This document shows, one piece after another, positions 1,336 to 17,706 of a stretch of DNA of 23,340 nucleotides (the first letter of the stretch is position 1; the number at the start of each line of letters is the position of its first letter). Position numbers and translations under genes: made by a program. This DNA comes from a virus: positions 1 to 23,340 of IMG/VR virus record IMGVR_UViG_3300001680_000222; one strand, written 5' to 3'. Below the pieces are notes generated by a model. It did no database searches and had not been told where the DNA came from. It was given only the letters and a program-made list of their open reading frames with translations.

Positions 1336-1343
1336 TATTTATA
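1336..1343 (-). promoter_or_regulatory. T4-type late promoter (TATAAATA) for the radical SAM gene
   Basis: Reading on the minus strand the box is a perfect TATAAATA, the T4 late (gp55-dependent) -10 element. Its end is 6 nt from the ATG at 1329, so a transcript would start at or next to the start codon and carry essentially no leader. The 1344-1429 remainder of the gap shows nothing else I can support. Confidence 0.7.
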
Positions 1344-1429: not shown

Positions 1430-2158
1430 TTATGTCTTAAATATACTTGCACCTATAAGGTTATTATGTGGATAACCTTCTAAGTTCCGGAACAGTTCTA
1501 CGAATGTAGCACCTGATGCTAGTACGTCGTCTAAGACTAATATATTTGATTGTTCGGTTACACGTTTACTTAGCGGACCTGCTAACGAGAAGTAATTACT
1601 TACAAACTTAACAAACCGCTTGTCAAACTTCTTCATTTCTAAGTACCCGTCTTTAATTGCTTTGTTTAATACACCTTGTAACCCTGCTAAAATTTTAGGC
1701 GTCATCTTTGGGTTCTCTATATCTATTTTGATCTGTGATGGATCTATCGACTTAACAAAATATTCAGGATAGAACTCAACACCTTGCGCTCGTTGTTGTA
1801 AGTCTGCTAATAGGTCGTTTAGTATGTTGCTTGAGCTCGTTGGTGTAATAATCACGTCTATTTTATTAGGACGTATTACTTTAGATTGCAGAAAGATAGA
1901 TGTTCTTTTTAAGAATTGTCGGTAATCGTTTTGGTCTACTTCGTACGGTCCATTACCTTTAATAGATGACATAACATCTGTGGCTTGTACCATTTTATAT
2001 ACACTATAGACAGGATGATGCGCTACATTAATACCCTTTGCTATATATGGCTGGAACGCTTTGCCTTTGCCAAGTTTAGTCATACCACTTGAAGAGTAGT
2101 CAAATCCTAATTTGTTATCTTGTGTTTTGAAATCTTCGAACAAATTCTGTAGTAGCAT
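1430..2158 (-). CDS. Phosphoribosyltransferase-like protein
   Basis: A 242-residue protein of the type I phosphoribosyltransferase fold. Near the C-terminus is the PRPP-binding signature: hydrophobic strand, DD, then a glycine turn (NILVLDDVLASGATF, about residues 201-215). An upstream strand and loop (DVIITPTSSS) fits the pyrophosphate-loop region. The first ~90 residues are unlike standard purine or pyrimidine salvage enzymes, so the base or acceptor cannot be named. The N-terminus reads MLLQNLFEDF; LFE followed by D resembles a prohead-protease site, as in the small genes at 4091-5602, although one such match can be chance. A CATAAATA late box lies 6 nt upstream of the ATG with no usable Shine-Dalgarno. 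The SLOG gene ends 15 nt upstream. Fold call good, function unknown. Confidence 0.8.
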   Translation of the reverse strand: MLLQNLFEDFKTQDNKLGFDYSSSGMTKLGKGKAFQPYIAKGINVAHHPVYSVYKMVQATDVMSSIKGNGPYEVDQNDYRQFLKRTSIFLQSKVIRPNKIDVIITPTSSSNILNDLLADLQQRAQGVEFYPEYFVKSIDPSQIKIDIENPKMTPKILAGLQGVLNKAIKDGYLEMKKFDKRFVKFVSNYFSLAGPLSKRVTEQSNILVLDDVLASGATFVELFRNLEGYPHNNLIGASIFKT

Positions 2159-2164
2159 ATTCCA

Positions 2165-2172
2165 TATTTATG
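2165..2172 (-). promoter_or_regulatory. Late promoter variant (CATAAATA) for the PRTase-like gene
   Basis: The minus strand reads CATAAATA, then 6 nt, then the ATG at 2158. The same C-for-T variant precedes gp19, gp13 and gp14 in this window, which supports it as a real late box. Transcription would begin about at the start codon. Confidence 0.55.
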
Positions 2173-7146: not shown

Positions 7147-7499
7147 TATATTAGTACATTACGTGCAACAAAAATGTTAGGATTAAGTACGTTACTTACT
7201 CCTACTAACGCACTTTTAGGACGTGTTTGATTAAGATAAAATGCCATTACTTCTGAAACACCTATCGCACTCTGACCTTTCATAGAATCTAGCATTGTTA
7301 ATGCTGGGACGTTTGTTTGATTCGCTACCCGAAACAAGTCAAGCGTAAATGCTTTTGCTAAAGTTTCTGTGCTCATTACCTTAGTAAAGAATCCTAAAAC
7401 TATATCATACTGTTCACTATGTACTTGCTGTCCTACGCGGTTATCGCTATAAAAATTCTCTGAGCTAAACTGCTTTGTACTTTGGCCGCTATGAGGCAT
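7146..7499 (-). CDS. Conserved small protein, probable virion component
   Basis: A 117-residue protein. The first ~45 residues are polar; the rest is rich in aliphatic residues with a pattern of helices (ETLAKAFTLDLFRVANQTNVPALTML) and a closing strand (NIFVARNVLI). I recall similar proteins in marine T4-like phages next to tail or head-completion genes but have no function for them. The start ATG at 7499 abuts the stop of the upstream tube-fold gene, and its end overlaps gp4 by one base, so it is part of the structural operon. It is not an obvious match to gp3 or gp53. Confidence 0.7.
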   Translation of the reverse strand: MPHSGQSTKQFSSENFYSDNRVGQQVHSEQYDIVLGFFTKVMSTETLAKAFTLDLFRVANQTNVPALTMLDSMKGQSAIGVSEVMAFYLNQTRPKSALVGVSNVLNPNIFVARNVLI

Positions 7500-8965
7500 T
7501 ATTGACCCCCTACTTGTTGTCCGTTGCTAGTTACATCTCCAGATACACCAAGTCTAGGATCAAACACTAAACTTTCTCTTAAACTACTAATAGTTGATTG
7601 CGCAGTTTGTTGTAAGTTATCAAGTGACGGTTGTAACTCTTGTGCAAAACTCTGAAACTGTGTAGCGGCATTCTGCAAATTTGCTTGTATTTCAGGAGCA
7701 TTTTGTTCTAACACAGCAAAACCTTGCTGTGTTGCGTTTTGTATGCTTACTAACGAATTTGTAAGACTACTGCTAGTTGTATTACGCTGTGGCGCATACT
7801 GTCTTTGTAGACTTCCTAGGCTATCGGATAATGTTGAGAATGTGTTGGTATTAGGCAATCCATTGCTAAAATTCTCATTTAACGGAATAAGCCCTTCTGA
7901 TGCATCAAACGACGGAATGTTAAATCCGCTAGCATTACTATTAGTAGAACCTAAACCTGATAAAAAATTCGCACCTTGTGACACTACTTCTGTGGCTATA
8001 TCACTAGACAATAACTGACCTACATCTACATTCCTTAATGTGTTTTGCAGAGTTCCGCTTGTTCTATATGCACCTAATATATTACCATCTGCTAAATCTT
8101 CAATAATACTTTCACCTGCATCAAATATACCACCTCGGCCAAACGTACTTGCTGTGCTACCTGCTCTCAATGGGCTCGAACTTGTATCGTACACCGACGA
8201 ATCAGCAAAGCCTTTAACTTGATTGCCGATTCTACCGCGCCCGTATTTAACAGCTTCGTAGTTAAATGTCATCGAATGTTGCATTACATCACCGCCAGCA
8301 CTTACATCATGTGTATCGTGTTGCCAATCTGTAATAAGAGGATTAATCATTGTGTATGATTTAAAGTTACCTTTGTTTAACGTATATATTTTTATATCTT
8401 TAAAGAAAGCAGGCTTAGTATCATTAATCGAACCTTGGCCGTTATAGCCCCAATCACTAATCGATCTTAAATTATCATATATGTCTCGGTTGTTATACCC
8501 TGGTGTGTTAACACCTTGCCCGTCGTAGGTATAACTAGAATCGTTATAATAATAACGATAATAATTAACCCACATAGACCGTACTGCATCACTCCCATCA
8601 TCATGAAGTGTTATAGTAACTGGTTGATAATTAATCTTCTTTTGAATATAACGCTTACGGTTATATTGATTCATTGCTTCGACTTCAAGGCTAAACGACG
8701 GCAAGGTTGCAGTCTTAGCTAATACGCCAATAGTTGCAGTATCATTACCACGTTGTATTCCTGGAATCTCTGTATTCAATGTGAAGAATACATGGAAAAG
8801 AAATTTGTTAGTAGGTGCTAGTGCAAAACCATCTTTTACAAAAGTTTTGCTAGCGTGTTGGTAATCTCTAACATAATCAACACCGAAGAATCCTTGATTA
8901 AAGTCATTGTCAAATCCTTTAATCTGGTTCTTTAATGTTTGTGTTAATAGGCTACCAAATCCCAT
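7499..8965 (-). CDS. Tail-tube-fold structural protein with coiled-coil tail (gp54/gp48-like candidate)
   Basis: A 488-residue virion protein. Residues about 50-260 show the phage tail-tube pattern: hydrophobic strands NKFLFHVFFTL, TATLPSFSLEVEAMNQYNRKRYIQKKINYQPVTI, a MWVNYYRYYYND helix, and DIKIYTLNKG...PLITDWQHDTHDVSAGGDVMQHSMTFNYEAV. Tube-fold proteins in T4-like phages include gp19, gp48 and gp54. The remaining ~220 residues are Ser/Asn/Gln-rich and low complexity, with a Gln-rich amphipathic stretch near 400-465 that may form a coiled coil. The gene directly follows gp19, so a tube-initiation or tube-end role (gp54) is plausible, but which homologue it is cannot be decided by eye. Confidence 0.7.
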   Translation of the reverse strand: MGFGSLLTQTLKNQIKGFDNDFNQGFFGVDYVRDYQHASKTFVKDGFALAPTNKFLFHVFFTLNTEIPGIQRGNDTATIGVLAKTATLPSFSLEVEAMNQYNRKRYIQKKINYQPVTITLHDDGSDAVRSMWVNYYRYYYNDSSYTYDGQGVNTPGYNNRDIYDNLRSISDWGYNGQGSINDTKPAFFKDIKIYTLNKGNFKSYTMINPLITDWQHDTHDVSAGGDVMQHSMTFNYEAVKYGRGRIGNQVKGFADSSVYDTSSSPLRAGSTASTFGRGGIFDAGESIIEDLADGNILGAYRTSGTLQNTLRNVDVGQLLSSDIATEVVSQGANFLSGLGSTNSNASGFNIPSFDASEGLIPLNENFSNGLPNTNTFSTLSDSLGSLQRQYAPQRNTTSSSLTNSLVSIQNATQQGFAVLEQNAPEIQANLQNAATQFQSFAQELQPSLDNLQQTAQSTISSLRESLVFDPRLGVSGDVTSNGQQVGGQ

Positions 8966-8971
8966 ATTAGA

Positions 8972-9586
8972 TTAAGAAACGTTATCGCCGATTGAACGTC
9001 CTACATCTGTGCCTACACCGCTACCTAATGGAGTCTGTACTGCATTATCAAAACGAAGTGTCATTGCTAGTGTAACTGGCTCTGAACTACCATAATTTAA
9101 ATCACCGTAGTTTACGTTTGACAAGTAACATCCATATACTTCCCATGTTTCAAGTACTGTAGGTTCAAATGCACCGTTACCACCGTCTAAAATCTCACAT
9201 CGTGTAGTAAATTTGTAGTCTGCACCTGAAGCGGCACTTGCTTGCTCCATGAAGTCTAATTGCTTCTGTAGTTGCTCACCAACGAGTTTAGCTACATTAC
9301 CACTGGCATCGTCACGTAAGTTGACACTGATGTCGTCCCATGTATGCTTTCCTGCTAAACGAACTCTTGAGTTGTATATCTCAAGATCAATTGGATCAAA
9401 ACTAACACTAGGACGTGTGAAGTCCATAACTTGTTTAGTTAATTCTGTTCTTGGAGTTGATACTCCCATATTTTCAAATATAATCCTAAATCGATATTTC
9501 AATTTAGGCATTAACAAGCCCTGACTAGACCCTGATTGATCAGTAGCCAAAGGCGTTGTCATTCTAGTCAATGATGATACTGCCAT
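8972..9586 (-). CDS. 19: Tail tube protein gp19
   Basis: A 204-residue major tail tube subunit that stacks as hexamers inside the sheath. The arrangement LKYRFRIIFEN, MDFTRPSVSFDPIDLEIYNSRVRLAGKHTWDDISVNLRDD, then TRCEILDG...LETWEVYGCYLSNVNYGDLNYGSSEPVTLAMTLRFDNA matches the T4 gp19 pattern of P..(V)...NS+..VAGK.TWDDI.V...DD and the late strand pair. Slightly longer than T4 (163) through N- and C-terminal tails. The ATG at 9586 follows GGGAGT, and a CATAAATA late box sits 29 nt upstream, giving the promoter-plus-leader layout also seen for gp18. Confidence 0.92.
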   Translation of the reverse strand: MAVSSLTRMTTPLATDQSGSSQGLLMPKLKYRFRIIFENMGVSTPRTELTKQVMDFTRPSVSFDPIDLEIYNSRVRLAGKHTWDDISVNLRDDASGNVAKLVGEQLQKQLDFMEQASAASGADYKFTTRCEILDGGNGAFEPTVLETWEVYGCYLSNVNYGDLNYGSSEPVTLAMTLRFDNAVQTPLGSGVGTDVGRSIGDNVS

Positions 9587-10811: not shown

Positions 10812-10821
10812 TACGTTATAA
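10804..10821. repeat. Inverted repeat between divergent promoters
   Basis: TTATAAC (10804-10810), 4-nt spacer ATAC, then GTTATAA (10815-10821). The palindrome overlaps the minus-strand extended -10 and the plus-strand late TATAAATA box, so a bound protein would affect both. It could also simply reflect two AT-rich promoter boxes facing each other. Confidence 0.6.
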
Positions 10822-10824
10822 ATA
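10817..10824 (+). promoter_or_regulatory. T4-type late promoter (TATAAATA) for the second HNH gene
   Basis: A perfect TATAAATA, then 5 nt (GAAAT), then the ATG at 10830. There is no Shine-Dalgarno. The expected transcription start is at the ATG, so the late mRNA would be leaderless. Confidence 0.7.
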
Positions 10825-10829
10825 GAAAT

Positions 10830-11378
10830 ATGTCTCATACCTTAATTCTAAACGCTGACGCCCAACCGCTATCAATGCTACCATTAAGTACACTAAAATG
10901 GGAGGACACTATGAGATTAATATTCCTCGATAAAGTAAACGTCGTTGAATATTACGACAATTGGAAAGTCCATTCTGCTAGAGACTCATTTAAAGTACCG
11001 TCTGTCGTCATAGTAAAGCGGTATATACAGCACAAAAAGTTCATAGCACTGTCTAAACCTAACTTATTTTTAAGAGATGGGTATAAATGTCAGTATTGTA
11101 ATAAAATGTTTGCTTACCGTGAACTTACATATGATCATGTATGGCCTAGATCAAAAGGTGGATTAACAGAGTGGAATAACATCGTAGCCGCTTGTAAGCC
11201 TTGCAACACTAAGAAAGGTGCTAGTATTATAGAACCACTTAATCAACCATTTATGCCTACGTATTGGAACTTAATTAAACGTAGGACAGAAATACCCATT
11301 GTTATTAGGCACTATTCTTGGAAACGATTCATTGATCCTAAAATGACTGTTAAACTAATCGAACCCAAGCAGTCATAA
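10830..11378 (+). CDS. HNH endonuclease
   Basis: A 182-residue protein of the HNH family common in bacteria and marine phages. The N-terminal ~75 residues (SHTLILNADAQPLSMLPLSTLKWEDTMRLIFLDKVNVVE) are typical of this subgroup. The nuclease module is LFLRDGYKCQYCNKMF, LTYDHVWPRSKGGLTEWNNIVAACKPCNTKKG, with CxxC, DH, N and CxxCN all present, so it should be active. It is a single-gene unit: leaderless late promoter in front, strong terminator behind, convergent with gp18. Nucleases in this subgroup may cut invading or host DNA; here the target is unknown. Confidence 0.9.
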   Translation: MSHTLILNADAQPLSMLPLSTLKWEDTMRLIFLDKVNVVEYYDNWKVHSARDSFKVPSVVIVKRYIQHKKFIALSKPNLFLRDGYKCQYCNKMFAYRELTYDHVWPRSKGGLTEWNNIVAACKPCNTKKGASIIEPLNQPFMPTYWNLIKRRTEIPIVIRHYSWKRFIDPKMTVKLIEPKQS

Positions 11379-11403
11379 AAAAAGCACCTTTCGGTGCTTT
11401 TTT
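11378..11403. terminator. Bidirectional Rho-independent terminator between HNH and gp18
   Basis: A-run plus GCACC, loop TTTC, GGTGC plus T-run. It overlaps the last base of the HNH stop codon and lies 18 nt beyond the gp18 stop on the other strand. A- and T-runs on both sides let it end both convergent transcripts. Confidence 0.92.
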
Positions 11404-11421: not shown

Positions 11422-14400
11422 TTACACTCCGCCTGTGGCAATTTCGCCTGTATTCTTAATTCTAACAGGGATAAAGATAAACTCAACTGATTTAACTGGC
11501 TCAATAGCAATATCAACATATAATTCGTTTCTATCAATACGCGCTGGTGTGTTATTGCTCTCATCACATACTACTAGATAATCAAATAAGCCACGTTTAG
11601 CAATCAAATCGTTCATTATGCTTTCCATAACACCTTTAATCTCATCGCGTGTTAACTTGTCGTTTGGCTCAAAGATAAACGTCTTGGCCGCATTTTCAAC
11701 TTGTTGTCTAATAAACGAAACTAAACGTGCAACATTAATTCTATCTAACGCTGTGCCTGATTGTGTAGTTTTATTACCGTAGTTTACAAGACCTGTGCCT
11801 GGAATAAACGTTAGTGGGTTAATGTTGTTTTCATACAACGTATCTCTAGTTGCATTTCTAGTACCAGTTTGTTGGAACTCGCCAGTAGCAGAATCAATGT
11901 AGCCTAACGCATCTAGATTATCAATACTACCACGTCTAGTGCCTGCCGGTGCTAACCACGGATATGATTGATCATCACTGTGTACAATAGTTCTAAGTAG
12001 TGCATGACTAGGCGGAACAACAATTGCTGAACCTGTTAAGTCTGTACTTCTACCGCTTGGATAAAACACACCTAAGTACTGGTCGTTTACATTAAGACCA
12101 TCGTTAGTTGCTAACCCTAATCCGTTATTGTTAGTACTCCAATTAACTAAATCTGTTCCTGATTCTGATAATCTTAACGGAGTATCACCAACAACAAAAC
12201 CTGTATTGTTACGTTCATTGTTTAATGCTACCATATTAGTCATTAGCTCTGGGTAACCTGGTGCCGCCAATAAGTTAAACACACGTTGCTCTTCTCTGAT
12301 CTCTGTGTTACTATCAATTGCCGCTTTCATTGCCGCAACAACAATCGCACGTTGAGCAAGTCTTCCCATGTTAGCTTCGCCGTTATCTTTTAAACCTGAA
12401 GCAGTAACCCATGCATTTGTTTCTGTTGGTATTACACCAGTGAAGTCAGTTGAATTAAAGTAGTTTAGTTTAAATTCTTTAACATTAAAGCCGCTACGTC
12501 TTAAGTTCCAAAGCAATGTACCTGTTGGATATAAACTCGGTGATGGAGCATCTAAATCTAAATAGTTACTTGATAACAAACTAGCAATAGTTGGCATCGT
12601 ACCACTAATTGGATCTGTAGTTCCGTCAGTGTCCCACCTTGCATCTGCAAATAAAATACCTTTCTCTGATGTTTGATCAGTAGTATCAACTGCTACCCAT
12701 TTCGTTCCACTCCAGCGATTAATTAATGGAAAGTTCTCTAAATCACTTGTGTCAACCCAAAGATCATTTGCAACTAATGCTGTTCCGTCGCTTTGTGCTG
12801 ATGGTGCAAGTACAGATACTGTAGGACCAGCCGGGTCAGTAGTAGGAAACTTAGTTAAGTAACCTTTCCAGCCGCCGCCGCCTTGAACCATAATATCAAT
12901 TTCATCAATTGCACTACTATACCATTTAGTACCTTCAACTGGATCTTGCCCTGGTTGAGTAGGACCAGCACTAAATACCGCTTCCATGCCTAGTGCTTCA
13001 AAATTTGTAATTATTAGATCGCCTTGAACACACTCACGTACATTATATTGCGATATTGAAAATCCAGCATCTGCTAATGGAGTTCCTGATATATCTTTAA
13101 CTTCAATCACACCACCTTGGGTGTGAACAATTTTAACTGCTCCTGCTGTTGTGACTAATGCTGTTGTATTTGCAACACCTGTCGCTAACCAATCTTCAAC
13201 AAAAGACGCCGCTGTTGTTCCTGTTAAAGTTACCGTTACTGGTGCAGTTAATACAGTTGAACTATTATCACTTGCTTTAATTGTAAATGTATTACCTACT
13301 GTAAATGTAGGGTTAGTTATAGCACCTGCAACTTCTGTGGCTCCAGTTTGTGTGCGGAATAATACCATTAATGTTGCAGTATCGTCGGTAAACGAATCAA
13401 ACCTAGCATACGTAGTACCTGGAGGAATTGCACTGCCACCGTTAGCTGGATCTAACGCATTAATTGCAGACTCATCATCGCAATGCAATGATGTAACTTG
13501 TGATACAAATGTACCTGTAGTTGAGTCAAATTTCTTAATTGCAAGGTTAGTACCTAAGTCTACACTAGTAGTCTTAATCCAAACAGAACCTGTTCGTCTG
13601 CCTCCAGTAATCATTAAATCGCTAGCTTTCCAAGTTGGATTATTTGCGTGTGTGCTTTGGCGTAATTGTAGCATTCCGTATGTACCTGATAATCCAGTAC
13701 CTGTATTATCTGTTACTGCCAATATATGATGGCGCACTGTGCCAGTTCCTGTTCCCATGCCGGTTGCAATAAAGGTTTTACCTACCTCGTTTGCTCCTGC
13801 TCCGATAGCTGTAAAATCAGTTGTTCCTACTGTTAAAATCGTGTACTCAACACCTGGCATTAACATAGTTGCCGGTGGATATGCTCCTGACGATGTAGCA
13901 TCAGCATATATCTCAACTTTATTACTAACCACTGCGGCTGTAATACCTGTAAGACTAGCAGTATTAATATCTGAAACTAAAGTAGCAATTGTAGTACCCG
14001 AAAGAGTAACTGTTCCGCCGTTACCACTAGTGTTAATATCAATAGTAGTGCCGCTTGTCAGCGTAAGTGTGCTAGCATCTGCACTAGTAACCGATGGATG
14101 ACTATCATACCAATCTGAATCTGCCGCAATGCCGGTGTCAGTATTATCTCCTACTAATACCCAAGTATTACTGCGGTTCTTATAATAAATCGGAGTTCTA
14201 ACACTAATTGCAACTACAGCATAATCACCGATATTACCGATACTCGGTAACGGTTCACCAGTAACAACACCACCAACTAAGTTACTTAGGCTAGTAATTA
14301 CAGTTGGCACCTTATTTTTAAATGCTTCTGTAGTTTCATTCCATTCAAAGATACCCCACTGTGTAGACGCTGTGTCTAACCAGTAAGTACCATTCTCTGG

Positions 14401-14787
14401 ATTACCTGACGGTCTAACTGTTGTAGGAGTTAACTCTGCTAAGTCAATATCAGCACGCTGTACGTACGCTCTATTACTTAGTCCTAATACCGAATAAGCC
14501 GCTTGTAAGCCGTACTCATTAAGCTCATAACCATGAATTGGAGTACCGCTTGACGTTTTATAAAACGCTGGGGTACCAAACGTATTAGTTAATTCACGTT
14601 GACTTGAAATTAAAAATGTGTTGCCAACTGCTGATGCTAATGTTCCTGGTGCTACTGCTGTGCCAGCACCGTTAATTTTGTTAGCCGCTGTTGCAACTAA
14701 AATGAAAGGTACTGTCGCTGTTGATGCCGCTGGAAATGCGCTCTCATCAACAATGGTTACCTCTACGCCTGGTGAAACTAATGCCAT
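11422..14787 (-). CDS. 18: Tail sheath protein gp18, greatly enlarged
   Basis: The contractile sheath subunit. The N-terminus (MALVSPGVEVTIVDES) and the last ~430 residues carry the conserved sheath core: GTLLWNLRRSGFNVKEF, QRAIVVAAMKAAIDSN, VVPPSHALLRTIVHSDDQSYPWLAPAGTRRG, NNINPLTFIPGTGLVNYGNKT, INVARLVSFIRQQVENAAKTFIFEPND and the C-terminal FIFIPVRIKNTGEI. At 1,121 residues it is far longer than T4 gp18 (659). The extra ~460 residues sit at about 130-690 as beta-rich, Thr/Gly-rich domains: two similar TLSGTT/TLTGTT modules (about 240-290 and 500-575), a GTTDFTAIGA module near 310-350, and WSGTKW-type motifs. These should lie on the outer sheath surface. Late promoter and GGGAGT ribosome site precede it. 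Confidence 0.93.
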   Translation of the reverse strand: MALVSPGVEVTIVDESAFPAASTATVPFILVATAANKINGAGTAVAPGTLASAVGNTFLISSQRELTNTFGTPAFYKTSSGTPIHGYELNEYGLQAAYSVLGLSNRAYVQRADIDLAELTPTTVRPSGNPENGTYWLDTASTQWGIFEWNETTEAFKNKVPTVITSLSNLVGGVVTGEPLPSIGNIGDYAVVAISVRTPIYYKNRSNTWVLVGDNTDTGIAADSDWYDSHPSVTSADASTLTLTSGTTIDINTSGNGGTVTLSGTTIATLVSDINTASLTGITAAVVSNKVEIYADATSSGAYPPATMLMPGVEYTILTVGTTDFTAIGAGANEVGKTFIATGMGTGTGTVRHHILAVTDNTGTGLSGTYGMLQLRQSTHANNPTWKASDLMITGGRRTGSVWIKTTSVDLGTNLAIKKFDSTTGTFVSQVTSLHCDDESAINALDPANGGSAIPPGTTYARFDSFTDDTATLMVLFRTQTGATEVAGAITNPTFTVGNTFTIKASDNSSTVLTAPVTVTLTGTTAASFVEDWLATGVANTTALVTTAGAVKIVHTQGGVIEVKDISGTPLADAGFSISQYNVRECVQGDLIITNFEALGMEAVFSAGPTQPGQDPVEGTKWYSSAIDEIDIMVQGGGGWKGYLTKFPTTDPAGPTVSVLAPSAQSDGTALVANDLWVDTSDLENFPLINRWSGTKWVAVDTTDQTSEKGILFADARWDTDGTTDPISGTMPTIASLLSSNYLDLDAPSPSLYPTGTLLWNLRRSGFNVKEFKLNYFNSTDFTGVIPTETNAWVTASGLKDNGEANMGRLAQRAIVVAAMKAAIDSNTEIREEQRVFNLLAAPGYPELMTNMVALNNERNNTGFVVGDTPLRLSESGTDLVNWSTNNNGLGLATNDGLNVNDQYLGVFYPSGRSTDLTGSAIVVPPSHALLRTIVHSDDQSYPWLAPAGTRRGSIDNLDALGYIDSATGEFQQTGTRNATRDTLYENNINPLTFIPGTGLVNYGNKTTQSGTALDRINVARLVSFIRQQVENAAKTFIFEPNDKLTRDEIKGVMESIMNDLIAKRGLFDYLVVCDESNNTPARIDRNELYVDIAIEPVKSVEFIFIPVRIKNTGEIATGGV

Positions 14788-14821
14788 TTGTTCTACTCCC
14801 TATCTATAAATTTGTTAAAAC

Positions 14822-14829
14822 TATTTATA
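14822..14829 (-). promoter_or_regulatory. T4-type late promoter (TATAAATA) for gp18
   Basis: A perfect TATAAATA on the minus strand, followed by a leader of about 28 nt with AGGGAGT before the gp18 ATG at 14787. Nearly the same spacing and ribosome site as the gp19 leader. Confidence 0.8.
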
Positions 14830-14835
14830 GCTTTT

Positions 14836-14844
14836 TGGTATAAT
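14836..14844 (+). promoter_or_regulatory. Extended -10 sigma70-type promoter upstream of the zinc-ribbon gene
   Basis: TGGTATAAT carries a perfect TATAAT with the TGn extension and a weak TTAAAA upstream at 18-nt spacing. RNA starting near 14851 would include both arms of the RBS-sequestering hairpin at 14869-14911. A second TATAAT at 14878-14883 lacks a -35. Confidence 0.5.
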
Positions 14845-14868
14845 TAACGGTTTAGTGGTACCTTTGGA

Positions 14869-14911
14869 TACCTTTTTTATAATGATAAATATTTTAAAAA
14901 TAAAAAAGGTA
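14869..14911 (+). promoter_or_regulatory. Hairpin that would sequester the ribosome site, with a late promoter in its loop
   Basis: TACCTTTTTTAT (14869-14880) and ATAAAAAAGGTA (14900-14911) are a perfect 12-bp inverted repeat with a 19-nt loop. The right arm contains the AAGG ribosome site of the gene at 14919. GATAAATA (14884-14891), a late-promoter variant, lies inside the loop; RNA starting from it (near 14897) lacks the left arm and leaves the ribosome site free. T4 genes e, soc and 49 are controlled this way. Confidence 0.65.
14884..14891 (+). promoter_or_regulatory. Late promoter variant (GATAAATA) for the zinc-ribbon gene
   Basis: GATAAATA differs from the T4 late box only in the first base. 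It is 27 nt upstream of the ATG at 14919, a normal late-leader distance, and sits within the loop of the hairpin above. Confidence 0.5.
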
Positions 14912-14918
14912 CCTTTTT

Positions 14919-15248
14919 ATGACGAGAAAAAAAGAAAACCAAAAAGAAAGAGAATTATGTAAATGTGGGAAGCGTCATGTCGCTATTAATTACGCTAAAG
15001 ATGGAATATTACATTACAGGTCAACTTGTAGTACATGTGCTAAGAAACCTAAAATAGAAATACCTAAGTGGCAAGTAGCAGGTTACAGAAAAAAGAAGTA
15101 TTGCGAAAAGTGTAACTTTAAAGCGAAGTACCTAGAGCAATTAGACGTTTATACATTTACAGCTTTTAAAACTGTATGCCTTAACTGCTTAAAAGAATTA
15201 GAACATACCGGTACTTGGATACAAGGTGATTTAATCGCTGATTTTTAG
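14919..15248 (+). CDS. Small multi-zinc-ribbon protein (treble-clef, HNH-like remnant)
   Basis: A 109-residue basic protein with several zinc-binding pairs: CKCGKRH (C14, C16, H20), CSTC, YCEKCNFKAKY and VCLNC. The second half (CEKC...LEQLDVY...KTVCLNC) resembles treble-clef modules of phage HNH-like proteins, but the His/Asn stretch that would form an HNH site between LDVY and KTVC is absent (only TFTAF is there). So it is probably a nucleic-acid-binding zinc protein without nuclease activity. It is on the opposite strand to gp18 and DexA; its stop shares bases with the DexA stop (convergent overlap of 4 nt). Expression appears time-controlled by the upstream hairpin. Confidence 0.8.
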   Translation: MTRKKENQKERELCKCGKRHVAINYAKDGILHYRSTCSTCAKKPKIEIPKWQVAGYRKKKYCEKCNFKAKYLEQLDVYTFTAFKTVCLNCLKELEHTGTWIQGDLIADF

Positions 15249-15769
15249 CCGATCTTTGTTACTTCAAGTTGTGTAATACATTTCTGTAATAGCGTAATTT
15301 GATTAACACAATCAGCAAGGGCGTGATGATCGTTTCCTAATCTACCTGCGTTTGGACATAGCTTATATAATGTTCTAGCATCAAGGACTTTATAGTACTG
15401 CCATGGTAATGCTTTGTTATGTTCTTTGTACGCATCTTCTAGTATGGTCATATCAAACGCAATGCCGTTAGCCCATATCCTCCCACACTTACGTGCAAGT
15501 CTAGATAAATCATCTAACGCTTCGTCTAACGGCACTCTATCTTCATCACCAAACGCTTCTTCTTGTGCTTCTGCACCTTGTTTACTCCACCACTCAACAG
15601 TGCTATCGTCAATGTCTCTGTTAGGTTGTGTCTCTGTATCTATTCTATGATAGACAACATGTTCATCGTATACTGTATTTGTAAAAGGGTCAAAGCCAAT
15701 AGCGCCTATGTTTAAAATAACCGCATTTGGCGTTGTTGAGAGTGTTTCTATATCTAGCATTAAATCCAT
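15245..15769 (-). CDS. dexA: DexA-like 3'-5' exonuclease (DEDDh family)
   Basis: A 174-residue RNase H-fold exonuclease. Motif I is MLDIETLST (Asp and Glu metal ligands), motif II is WANGIAFDMTILEDAY, and motif III is HHALADCVNQ (His and Asp). A STVEWWSKQGAEAQEE segment is specific to T4 DexA and related phage exonucleases. T4 DexA (227 aa) degrades DNA 3' to 5'. All catalytic residues appear intact, so it should be active. The ATG at 15769 coincides with the predicted start of RNA from the extended -10 promoter just upstream; a second ATG at 15760 (MLDIET) with GGAT before it is an alternative start. The promoter type suggests early synthesis among late genes. Confidence 0.9.
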   Translation of the reverse strand: MDLMLDIETLSTTPNAVILNIGAIGFDPFTNTVYDEHVVYHRIDTETQPNRDIDDSTVEWWSKQGAEAQEEAFGDEDRVPLDEALDDLSRLARKCGRIWANGIAFDMTILEDAYKEHNKALPWQYYKVLDARTLYKLCPNAGRLGNDHHALADCVNQITLLQKCITQLEVTKIG

Positions 15770-15775
15770 AAGGCT

Positions 15776-15784
15776 ATTATAACA
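15776..15784 (-). promoter_or_regulatory. Extended -10 promoter for dexA
   Basis: The minus strand reads TGTTATAAT, the same extended -10 as at 10803-10811. No good -35 is seen. It lies in the 29-nt gap between dexA and the basic protein gene, so it would allow early expression of dexA alone. The predicted RNA start falls at about the ATG. Confidence 0.55.
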
Positions 15785-15798
15785 GTAACTCTGTTTAA

Positions 15799-16380
15799 TT
15801 AACGTCTTTTTTTCGGTTTCTTTTTCTTCTTAGGTCTACCTAATCGATTTAACTTAGCGGCTAACTTAGTTCTAGGATTTATAAGTTTAGTCCTTTTGGC
15901 TTTACGTGCTTGTGCTTTGCTTGTTTTTTTACGTGTAACTTTCATCCTTTGCGCTTGTGCAAAATCTAATGGCTTATTACAATCTTTAGGATCAGGTACT
16001 GTTCTATTTGTACGAATTCCTGATGTACAGCGCCATTTAAGCTTTAAGCCTTTAGGGGTACTTTTCCATACCATCCTGTGTTCGTTAATGCCGTGTTTAG
16101 AGAAACCATAGAATTTTTCAAATTCTTTATCGTCCATGTCAGCTCTATCTTTCTTGTACTGCTTTGTTAAGTTAGACGTCTTACTTAGTTTTTTCTTAGT
16201 AACAGCTTTAGCTACAGGGTTGTTCCACTTGTTAACAACTGCATGTGCCATTTTTTCGATAGTATCACCTGGTAAGTGGCTGAACTTCTTTGCGTTTCTT
16301 AGCATATTAACTGCTTTAGCAAGTTGCAACCAATTTTCATTTAAGACGTATTCTTCTTTTATTATTTCTCTTATTTTCAT
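15799..16380 (-). CDS. Very basic DNA-binding-like protein, possible internal head protein
   Basis: A 193-residue protein, Lys/Arg-rich throughout and especially at the end (GRPKKKKKPKKRR). The N-terminus MKIREIIKEEYVLNEN has several [LI]xE steps, with LNE at 13-15 as a possible gp21-type site, followed by an amphipathic helix region (LQLAKAVNMLRNAKKF) and a middle segment MVWKSTPKGLKLKWRCTSGIRTNRTVPDPKDCNKP. That middle resembles short basic proteins I recall from marine T4-like phages, where a W.CTSG...R.V..P..C pattern recurs (unverified). Charge and N-terminus suit a protein packed with DNA. It overlaps the SOD-like gene by 4 nt (ATGA), so the two are translated together. Function inferred only. 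Confidence 0.7.
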   Translation of the reverse strand: MKIREIIKEEYVLNENWLQLAKAVNMLRNAKKFSHLPGDTIEKMAHAVVNKWNNPVAKAVTKKKLSKTSNLTKQYKKDRADMDDKEFEKFYGFSKHGINEHRMVWKSTPKGLKLKWRCTSGIRTNRTVPDPKDCNKPLDFAQAQRMKVTRKKTSKAQARKAKRTKLINPRTKLAAKLNRLGRPKKKKKPKKRR

Positions 16381-16943
16381 AAAGACATCCTCTTATTTAC
16401 AACGTCCCAATCAATAATACGCCATATATTTGCTAAGTATTTGTCTTTATTTGCTTGATAATCTAAAGCCCAAGCATGCTCCCACATGTCTACTAAGAGT
16501 GCTATATTTGCTCGTACAGCGTGGTTCTTGATTACTTTGATATTACCCGTGGTATCCATAAAACACCATCCAGAACCTTGTATACTACGAGCAACCTCAC
16601 TAAATTCTTCTTTAAATTCAGTAAATGACTTATGCTTCTTTTCTATCACTTCTAATGCTATTCCGCTTGGCTTGTTGCTGTTTGTTGCTTTCTTAAACTG
16701 ACTAAAAAATTGATTATGTAGTACAGCGCCAGCGTAATTAAAATCACTATCACCGTCTTTATTATTATAGCGATCTACATAGCCTTTTGCTAGATTGCCA
16801 TAATGATAATTTACTGTTGCTTTAGACATTACAGGAGTTAACCCGTCCCTTGTTATAGGTAATTTCTCTAATTTAACTTCGCTTTCTTTTTTCTTTACGG
16901 TATTCTCGTCTTCAACGAGTGTTATGTATTTGAACAATCCCAT
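16377..16943 (-). CDS. Fe/Mn superoxide dismutase homologue with altered active site
   Basis: A 188-residue protein clearly of the Fe/Mn SOD family. N-terminal helical hairpin: VMSKATVNYHYGN..KGYVDRYNN; second helix NYAGAVLHNQFF; alpha/beta part ...FKEEF...GSGWCFMD, KNHAV, and LLVDMWEHAWALDYQANKDKYLANIWRIIDWDVV. Likely metal ligands are H47, D152 and H156. The usual second-helix WNHxF ligand has become LHNQF, so H76 is displaced one position. The usual HH pair after YHYGK is L51-A52, while Y55 (Tyr34 equivalent) stays. H141 sits where archaeal-type SODs have a second-sphere His. An extra ~28 residues precede the domain, with LVE|D (9-11). Activity is uncertain; a structural or head-packaged role is possible. 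Confidence 0.85.
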   Translation of the reverse strand: MGLFKYITLVEDENTVKKKESEVKLEKLPITRDGLTPVMSKATVNYHYGNLAKGYVDRYNNKDGDSDFNYAGAVLHNQFFSQFKKATNSNKPSGIALEVIEKKHKSFTEFKEEFSEVARSIQGSGWCFMDTTGNIKVIKNHAVRANIALLVDMWEHAWALDYQANKDKYLANIWRIIDWDVVNKRMSL

Positions 16944-16944
16944 A

Positions 16945-17706
16945 TTAACCTATAACCCAAGTAAGGGGTTGTCCTCCGTCGACGAAGTTGTATAAGTCTT
17001 CAATTAGTAGGGCCATCTCTGATTGTGCTTCTGCTTTAAGTTGTGAACCGTTTAATGCTGTGCCGCCTTGTGGTCCGCTAATACTAGCAAACTTCTCACG
17101 TGCTTCACCAATAATTAGCTTAGCCGCACTATACGTATAATCCCGCATCCATTGACTAGTGTGATTGTCTTGCAATAGCATAGACTCTGGCTTGTCATTG
17201 TATGTCCATAGCAGAATAACTTCGCCATCGCCTCTAGGATTTCTCACTAGTCTTAGCTGTTTAGTGACTGGGTTAAACGTATAATTCATAAATGCACCAA
17301 ACATTCTCTGTGCTATCTCAACGTACTGCGAATACAGTTCGTATGTTGCTAATCCTCCTGAATATGTATAATTCAGTAAGTAAACGTTTAATGTTGCTGA
17401 ACTAAACGGGTCGAAACTAGAGCTATTAGTGCCGCCCGAACTTCCCATTGTTCGTCTGTATATCTGTCTTACGTGTGTAATCTCTGATGGCAACGTATAT
17501 TCATTTACACCTTCTTGCATTTCTAACCAAGCATAACTTTCTTCTGTTGATGCTTGCGAACGTTGTCTATATGTTCCTAGTGCTTGTTTATACGCAACTT
17601 CATAGTGCGCAGGATCTAGCTCAAGGTCAATTATTCCTTCACCAAGACGAAGTGCTACATAATCAAATACGTCTTTCTTTAACCCTGTTAGATTGTCGTG
17701 TGCCAT
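16945..17706 (-). CDS. 13: Neck protein gp13
   Basis: A 253-residue head-tail connector (T4 gp13, 309 aa), which with gp14 closes the filled head. The start LKKDVFDYVALRLGEGIIDLELDPAHYEVAYKQALGTYRQ matches T4 gp13 [34 protein letters not shown]. The end WMRDYTYSAAKLIIGEAREKFASISGPQGGTALNGSQLKAEAQSEMALLIEDLYNF matches T4 WVKDYATALAK...[29 protein letters not shown]. The middle is shorter than in T4. It has its own CATAAATA late box and AAGG ribosome site. The other neck genes (gp14, gp15) lie on the opposite strand across the divergent region near 18900. Confidence 0.88.
   Translation of the reverse strand: MAHDNLTGLKKDVFDYVALRLGEGIIDLELDPAHYEVAYKQALGTYRQRSQASTEESYAWLEMQEGVNEYTLPSEITHVRQIYRRTMGSSGGTNSSSFDPFSSATLNVYLLNYTYSGGLATYELYSQYVEIAQRMFGAFMNYTFNPVTKQLRLVRNPRGDGEVILLWTYNDKPESMLLQDNHTSQWMRDYTYSAAKLIIGEAREKFASISGPQGGTALNGSQLKAEAQSEMALLIEDLYNFVDGGQPLTWVIG

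Follow-up and report, generated by a model that had tools for sequence, protein, structure and literature searches.

The window analyzed here is a 23.3-kb IMG/VR record (23,340 nucleotides) of a T4-like phage. Its genes include those of the tail tube (8972–9586, minus strand), the tail sheath (11422–14787, minus strand) and a neck protein (16945–17706, minus strand), and the element studied sits in a gap of 131 nt between the sheath gene and a small, divergently oriented gene for a 109-aa double zinc-finger protein (14919–15248, plus strand). The sheath gene has its own divergent late promoter, TATAAATA (14822–14829, minus strand). Searches of the window for Rfam families and for tRNAs found none. 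Elsewhere in the window, an iron/manganese superoxide dismutase gene (16377–16943, minus strand) lies amid phage structural genes, and two adjacent minus-strand genes (7499–8965 and 8972–9586) encode tail-tube-like proteins, one of them with a long C-terminal extension.

Within the gap, all on the plus strand, the arms TACCTTTTTTAT (14869–14880, left arm 2) and ATAAAAAAGGTA (14900–14911, right arm) are exact reverse complements over 12 bp with a spacer of 19 nt, and the right arm includes AAGG (14906–14909), the ribosome site of the zinc-protein gene. An earlier interpretation made from the letters alone (the sequence-only reading) had described this repeat over the AAGG and a T4-type late promoter in the hairpin loop, and we found both as described, the promoter GATAAATA being located at 14884–14891 with a predicted RNA start at approximately 14896–14898. 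That interpretation had missed a second left arm, GGTACCTTT (14857–14865, left arm 1), which forms a perfect 9-bp pairing with 14905–14913. Upstream of the arms, an extended –10 sequence, TGGTATAAT (14836–14844), together with TTAAAA at 14815 and an 18-bp spacer, makes a candidate host-type promoter. Next to the start codon, the 16-bp palindrome AAAAAGGTACCTTTTT (14903–14918), earlier proposed as a second fold, is indeed perfect, but the alternative fold that it offers the late RNA is weak (approximately –2 kcal/mol) and the palindrome is broken in two relatives, L001 and L005.

The spacers between late promoters and start codons in the window fall into two classes, 25–34 nt with a Shine–Dalgarno (SD) sequence and 5–6 nt. 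The longer class comprises the tube, neck and sheath genes, gene 18979 and the zinc gene, where 27 nt separate GATAAATA from the ATG; as this spacer fits the structural-gene class, GATAAATA behaves like a real late promoter. The shorter class comprises gene 1329 (radical SAM-like), gene 2158 and gene 10830 (HNH), for which leaderless late mRNAs are predicted. Their late-promoter matches, 5–6 nt 5′ of the ATG, are at 1336–1343 (minus strand), 2165–2172 (minus strand) and 10817–10824 (plus strand), respectively. On the minus strand, TGTTATAAT (15776–15784) stands six nucleotides 5′ of the ATG of an exonuclease gene (15245–15769), perhaps giving a leaderless early mRNA.

For comparison, we retrieved approximately 80 viral contigs by a search with the sheath and added further loci from a pattern scan, discarding the many scan matches that lacked a fitting open reading frame or lay inside coding DNA. 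Most of the approximately 80 contigs have the divergent sheath/zinc-gene pair. The zinc protein had a single MAG match, at 39% identity, in a genome collection search and weak matches only among sequenced phages. Group A consists of the window, L001, L005, L007 and L011, plus L198 and L200 from the pattern scan; its members have two left CCTTT copies 9–11 bp apart (one altered in L001), an NATAAATA, and then CAAAGGTACCTTT or a variant of it 9–12 nt 5′ of the ATG. In group A′ (L008, L009, L013, L015 and L172), the same element stands 5′ of a 95-aa gene that has been inserted; where the contig extends far enough, the zinc gene follows it. The occurrence of a different gene behind the same element indicates that the element is tied to the junction and not to one gene.

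Across the two groups, ten distinct sheath/zinc junction loci retained one or two left arms, the nested promoter and the SD-bearing right arm together, and all ten had a CCTTT copy approximately 10 bp 5′ of left arm 2. A forward ATAAATA was present between the arms in 10 of the 10 loci and a reverse one in none. The promoter always lies 3′ of the left arms, at an offset from AAAGG of exactly –21 in four loci and –24 in L001, and it adjoins the left arm in the five others. The expectation that relatives preserve the repeat was thus correct for these ten loci, but outside the window's clade the nested hairpin is mostly absent, L237 being an exception.

The arms have also changed in concert. L001 and L002 are close relatives of the window, with a zinc protein 76% identical; little of the window's sequence survives at their junction, but the layout does, in the order CTCTTTG, TATAAATA, CAAAGAG and ATG. 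In L001, ACCTTT/AAAGGT has become CTCTTTG/CAAAGAG, both arms together, by a two-base compensatory change (CTC/GAG) that preserves the hairpin though the right palindrome is broken. The arm extensions of L005, L007, L009 and L015 likewise differ between loci yet stay complementary, and the compensatory changes that the sequence-only reading had suggested looking for are therefore present. We compared each genome's own arms with arms swapped between genomes over the ten loci, and also ran the comparison on eight loci and without L001. Own arms formed helices of 9.1 pairs against 7.8 for swapped arms (Watson–Crick run, p=0.0007) and had a lower duplex energy (p=0.0014), although these permutation p-values are optimistic because the ten loci share ancestry.

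In predicted folds, the AAGG of the window had a pairing probability of 1.00 in the full transcript and was approximately 36% unpaired in an RNA starting near 14897; for comparison, most other SDs of the window were paired at 0.30–0.75, while that of gene 2173 reached 0.97. Among the ten distinct loci, the SD was predicted to be paired at 0.87–1.00 in long RNAs, nearly all of it with the left arms, and it was 18–57% unpaired in the late RNA of those loci where a late start could be modeled. The folding energies were modestly below those of shuffled sequences (z of –0.3 to –2.2) and are weak evidence on their own. Such weak z-scores would suit an inverted repeat that arose by chance or drift in AT-rich DNA containing CCTTT words, with the gene simply transcribed from its late promoter, and chance could supply the parts: an ATAAATA is expected with a per-loop probability of 2–26%, and among dinucleotide-shuffled versions of the 131-nt gap, though just 1.1% of them, an inverted repeat of at least 12 bp appeared. 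The whole window holds only five short-loop inverted repeats of at least 11 bp. The joint retention of arms, nested promoter and SD in ten distinct loci and the better pairing of own than of swapped arms argue against chance, which we regard as very unlikely.

The element is a real, conserved regulatory element, and it probably works as a temporal translation switch of the T4 type. The analysis shows how the sequence is laid out, that the arms co-vary, that a nested promoter is conserved and how the RNAs are predicted to fold; we infer use of the promoter, the early presence of a longer RNA and a block to ribosomes by the hairpin. An RNA begun upstream of the left arms would fold with its AAGG ribosome site paired, and the gene would be silent. 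Once the late sigma factor is active, RNA polymerase would start at GATAAATA in the loop, and the short late RNA, with a leader of approximately 22 nt and without both left arms, would leave the SD open, allowing the protein to be made late. Given the conservation across ten loci and the pairing of own arms, silence on the long RNA and translation from the late one is the best reading of the mechanism.

The switch reading is weakest on where the long RNA would come from. The hairpin and nested late promoter of the earlier proposal stand, in ten co-varying loci, but the supposed early promoter does not fare as well: the window's combination of TTAAAA, 18 bp and TGGTATAAT outscores 99.7% of shuffles (0.3% match it), yet this extended –10 promoter is strong in the window only and is not conserved in L001, L007, L011, L008, L009 and L015. 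A sigma-70 promoter was rejected as a conserved feature, being absent or poor in most relatives. No same-strand gene lies directly upstream of the element; the nearest plus-strand gene ends at 11378 and is followed by an 11-bp hairpin (11378–11403) and then by 3.4 kb of the sheath gene on the opposite strand. With neither a conserved upstream promoter nor a gene to read through from, the early half of the switch is something that we infer, and a long RNA across the left arms may not exist. The hairpin could alternatively act on an upstream-started RNA as a transcription terminator, attenuator or 5′ stabilizer, and the stem is indeed followed by T-rich sequence in a divergent region that, judging by its layout, would gain from insulation. 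The stem is mostly A–U, however, with loops of 33–96 nt, and a terminator scan found no site at the element; we consider such a role extremely improbable.

The protein encoded behind the element belongs to a family with paired CxC/CxxC and CxxC/CxxC zinc-binding motifs and is a double zinc finger probably derived from HNH nucleases, with the catalytic loop lost. Relatives match Pfam HNH/HNH_3 weakly (best E 0.0002), while the window protein itself has no match; it has LDVYTFTAFKTVCLNC at the HNH site and lacks the loop and the His. Distant family members retain YHxDGNxxNN without the last His, and the window's clade is without that loop, such that the catalytic H-N-H residues are incomplete in the window protein and in the distant relatives. 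A structure model of the protein (pLDDT 84) gave no significant match in a PDB fold search, DNA-binding folds included, with GATA3 and Hpy99I among the nonsignificant hits, and a PDB profile search gave only a weak lead, DotN/IcmJ at E 0.002. In L006, the protein has an N-terminal GIY-YIG-like domain, with a match to Pfam SegE_GIY-YIG just below the cut-off; by eye, such a domain was also read at the N terminus of the zinc protein of L012, and in L004 what looks like a GIY-YIG-type gene has been inserted, lying between the start of the sheath gene and the junction. These domains and the inserted gene tie the locus to homing-endonuclease traffic.

Beyond the window's clade, the sequence 5′ of the gene takes other forms. 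In group B, the region 5′ of TAAATA-N4/5-ATG contains a compact palindrome, such as CCCTTTGCAAAGG, CCTTAATTAAGG or CCTTACGTAAGG, and other distant relatives have AAAGGG direct repeats with an 11-bp phase in the palindrome's position, which replace the palindrome in part of the loci among L096–L149. Of 11 contigs of 91–342 kb, ten have the palindrome with a late promoter a single time per genome and the remaining one, G005, has it twice; the direct-repeat type with a late promoter was found once per genome in 5 of 5. We also noted a CCTT-N-AAGG palindrome, present once in each genome, immediately 5′ of a late promoter and zinc gene in L029, L036, L040, L052, L118 and other large contigs, and hairpins of the form ACCTTTG...TATAAATA...CAAAGGT 5′ of a baseplate-region gene in L226, L227, L230 and L246, the left arm in L226 overlapping the start of the divergent gene. 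The palindrome of the distant relatives was rejected as a means of hiding the SD, its AAGG lying approximately 17–30 nt from the ATG. The late promoter of these relatives lies 3–6 nt 5′ of the ATG, and, by the geometry of T4 late promoters, transcription from it should begin at the ATG and yield a leaderless late RNA. TAAATA-N3-6-ATG was enriched over a reversed control in several genomes, though not in all. It is possible that the gene is always translated late, from a leaderless RNA in most lineages and from an SD hidden on the long RNA in the window's clade.

The presence of the half-site element in distant relatives without the nested hairpin makes a DNA operator a real rival to the switch or an extra layer. 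The CCTTT/AAAGG repeats would then be half-sites bound by a protein, most simply the zinc protein itself, that regulates the late promoter, and the RNA hairpin would be a by-product or a second layer. The half-site recurs in the same place as the palindrome CCTTTGCAAAGG in distant relatives, as the AAAGGG direct repeats and, in the window's clade, as CCTTT repeats with a 9- to 10-bp phase, and its near-constant single occurrence with a late promoter in large contigs is consistent with an operator. So are the loci L006 and L012, in which the left repeats persist and the right arm is missing, and the precedent of I-TevI, which represses its own late promoter and has a hairpin over its ribosome-binding site (RBS) (PMC2988022). 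L006 and L012 also count against the switch, as do AAAGG/CCTTT sites outside the clade where no SD can be hidden. However, the complementarity of own arms co-varies and exceeds the half-site, the L001 hairpin has been kept with its right palindrome broken, and the zinc protein resembles no DNA-binding fold significantly; we regard the operator as rather unlikely, though it is the main rival to the switch or a companion of it. Less probable still is a reading in which an HNH-derived zinc protein has been domesticated and regulates the gene that encodes it, with AAAGG being both operator and SD and inverted copies of AAAGG forming an RNA lock on either side of the late promoter; lineages would have rearranged the half-sites into palindromes, direct repeats or the nested hairpin and replaced an SD-led late mRNA by one without a leader.

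The preferred reading, a translation switch, extends the hairpin/late-promoter design of T4 to a new gene family in an uncultured T4-like lineage, on the comparative evidence of co-varying arms. The comparison also exposes a lineage-level alternative, in which the close spacing of late promoter and ATG predicts leaderless mRNAs, and the once-per-genome AAAGG/CCTTT element opens the idea that an ex-nuclease regulates itself to a direct test.

In the T4 genes e, soc and 49, the SD is in a stem formed on long RNAs only, since the late promoter is so placed that the late RNA is made without the 5′ arm (PMC3014915); such RBS hairpins silence read-through RNAs (PMC3014915, PMC2988022). The window matches these genes in the predicted pairing of its SD in a long RNA and, judging by sequence position, in a late promoter placed to drop the 5′ arm. 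It differs in that the T4 genes are reached by polycistronic early read-through, whereas the window gene is an isolated divergent island without a conserved upstream promoter; the window gene also has two left arms and is unrelated to those of T4. T4 I-TevI, I-TevII, I-TevIII and segB and Aeh1 mobE have a hairpin over the RBS with a late promoter inside (PMC2988022), and the window shares with them the RBS hairpin, the nested late promoter and the world of HNH and GIY-YIG genes; unlike those homing endonucleases, its protein is without the HNH catalytic loop and has a fixed site beside the tail sheath gene. In the pattern scan, L222 gave a hairpin of –36 kcal/mol (2059–2102, minus strand) with GATAAATA in its loop, 5′ of a GIY-YIG-type gene right after tRNA-His. 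As in the window, a hairpin over the RBS has the promoter nested in its loop, but the gene is different and the arms, ACCTTTG/CAAAGGT within approximately 18 bp, are much longer and cover the tRNA 3′ end. This locus is a look-alike of T4 segB, and its design matches the known regulation of that gene (PMC2988022).
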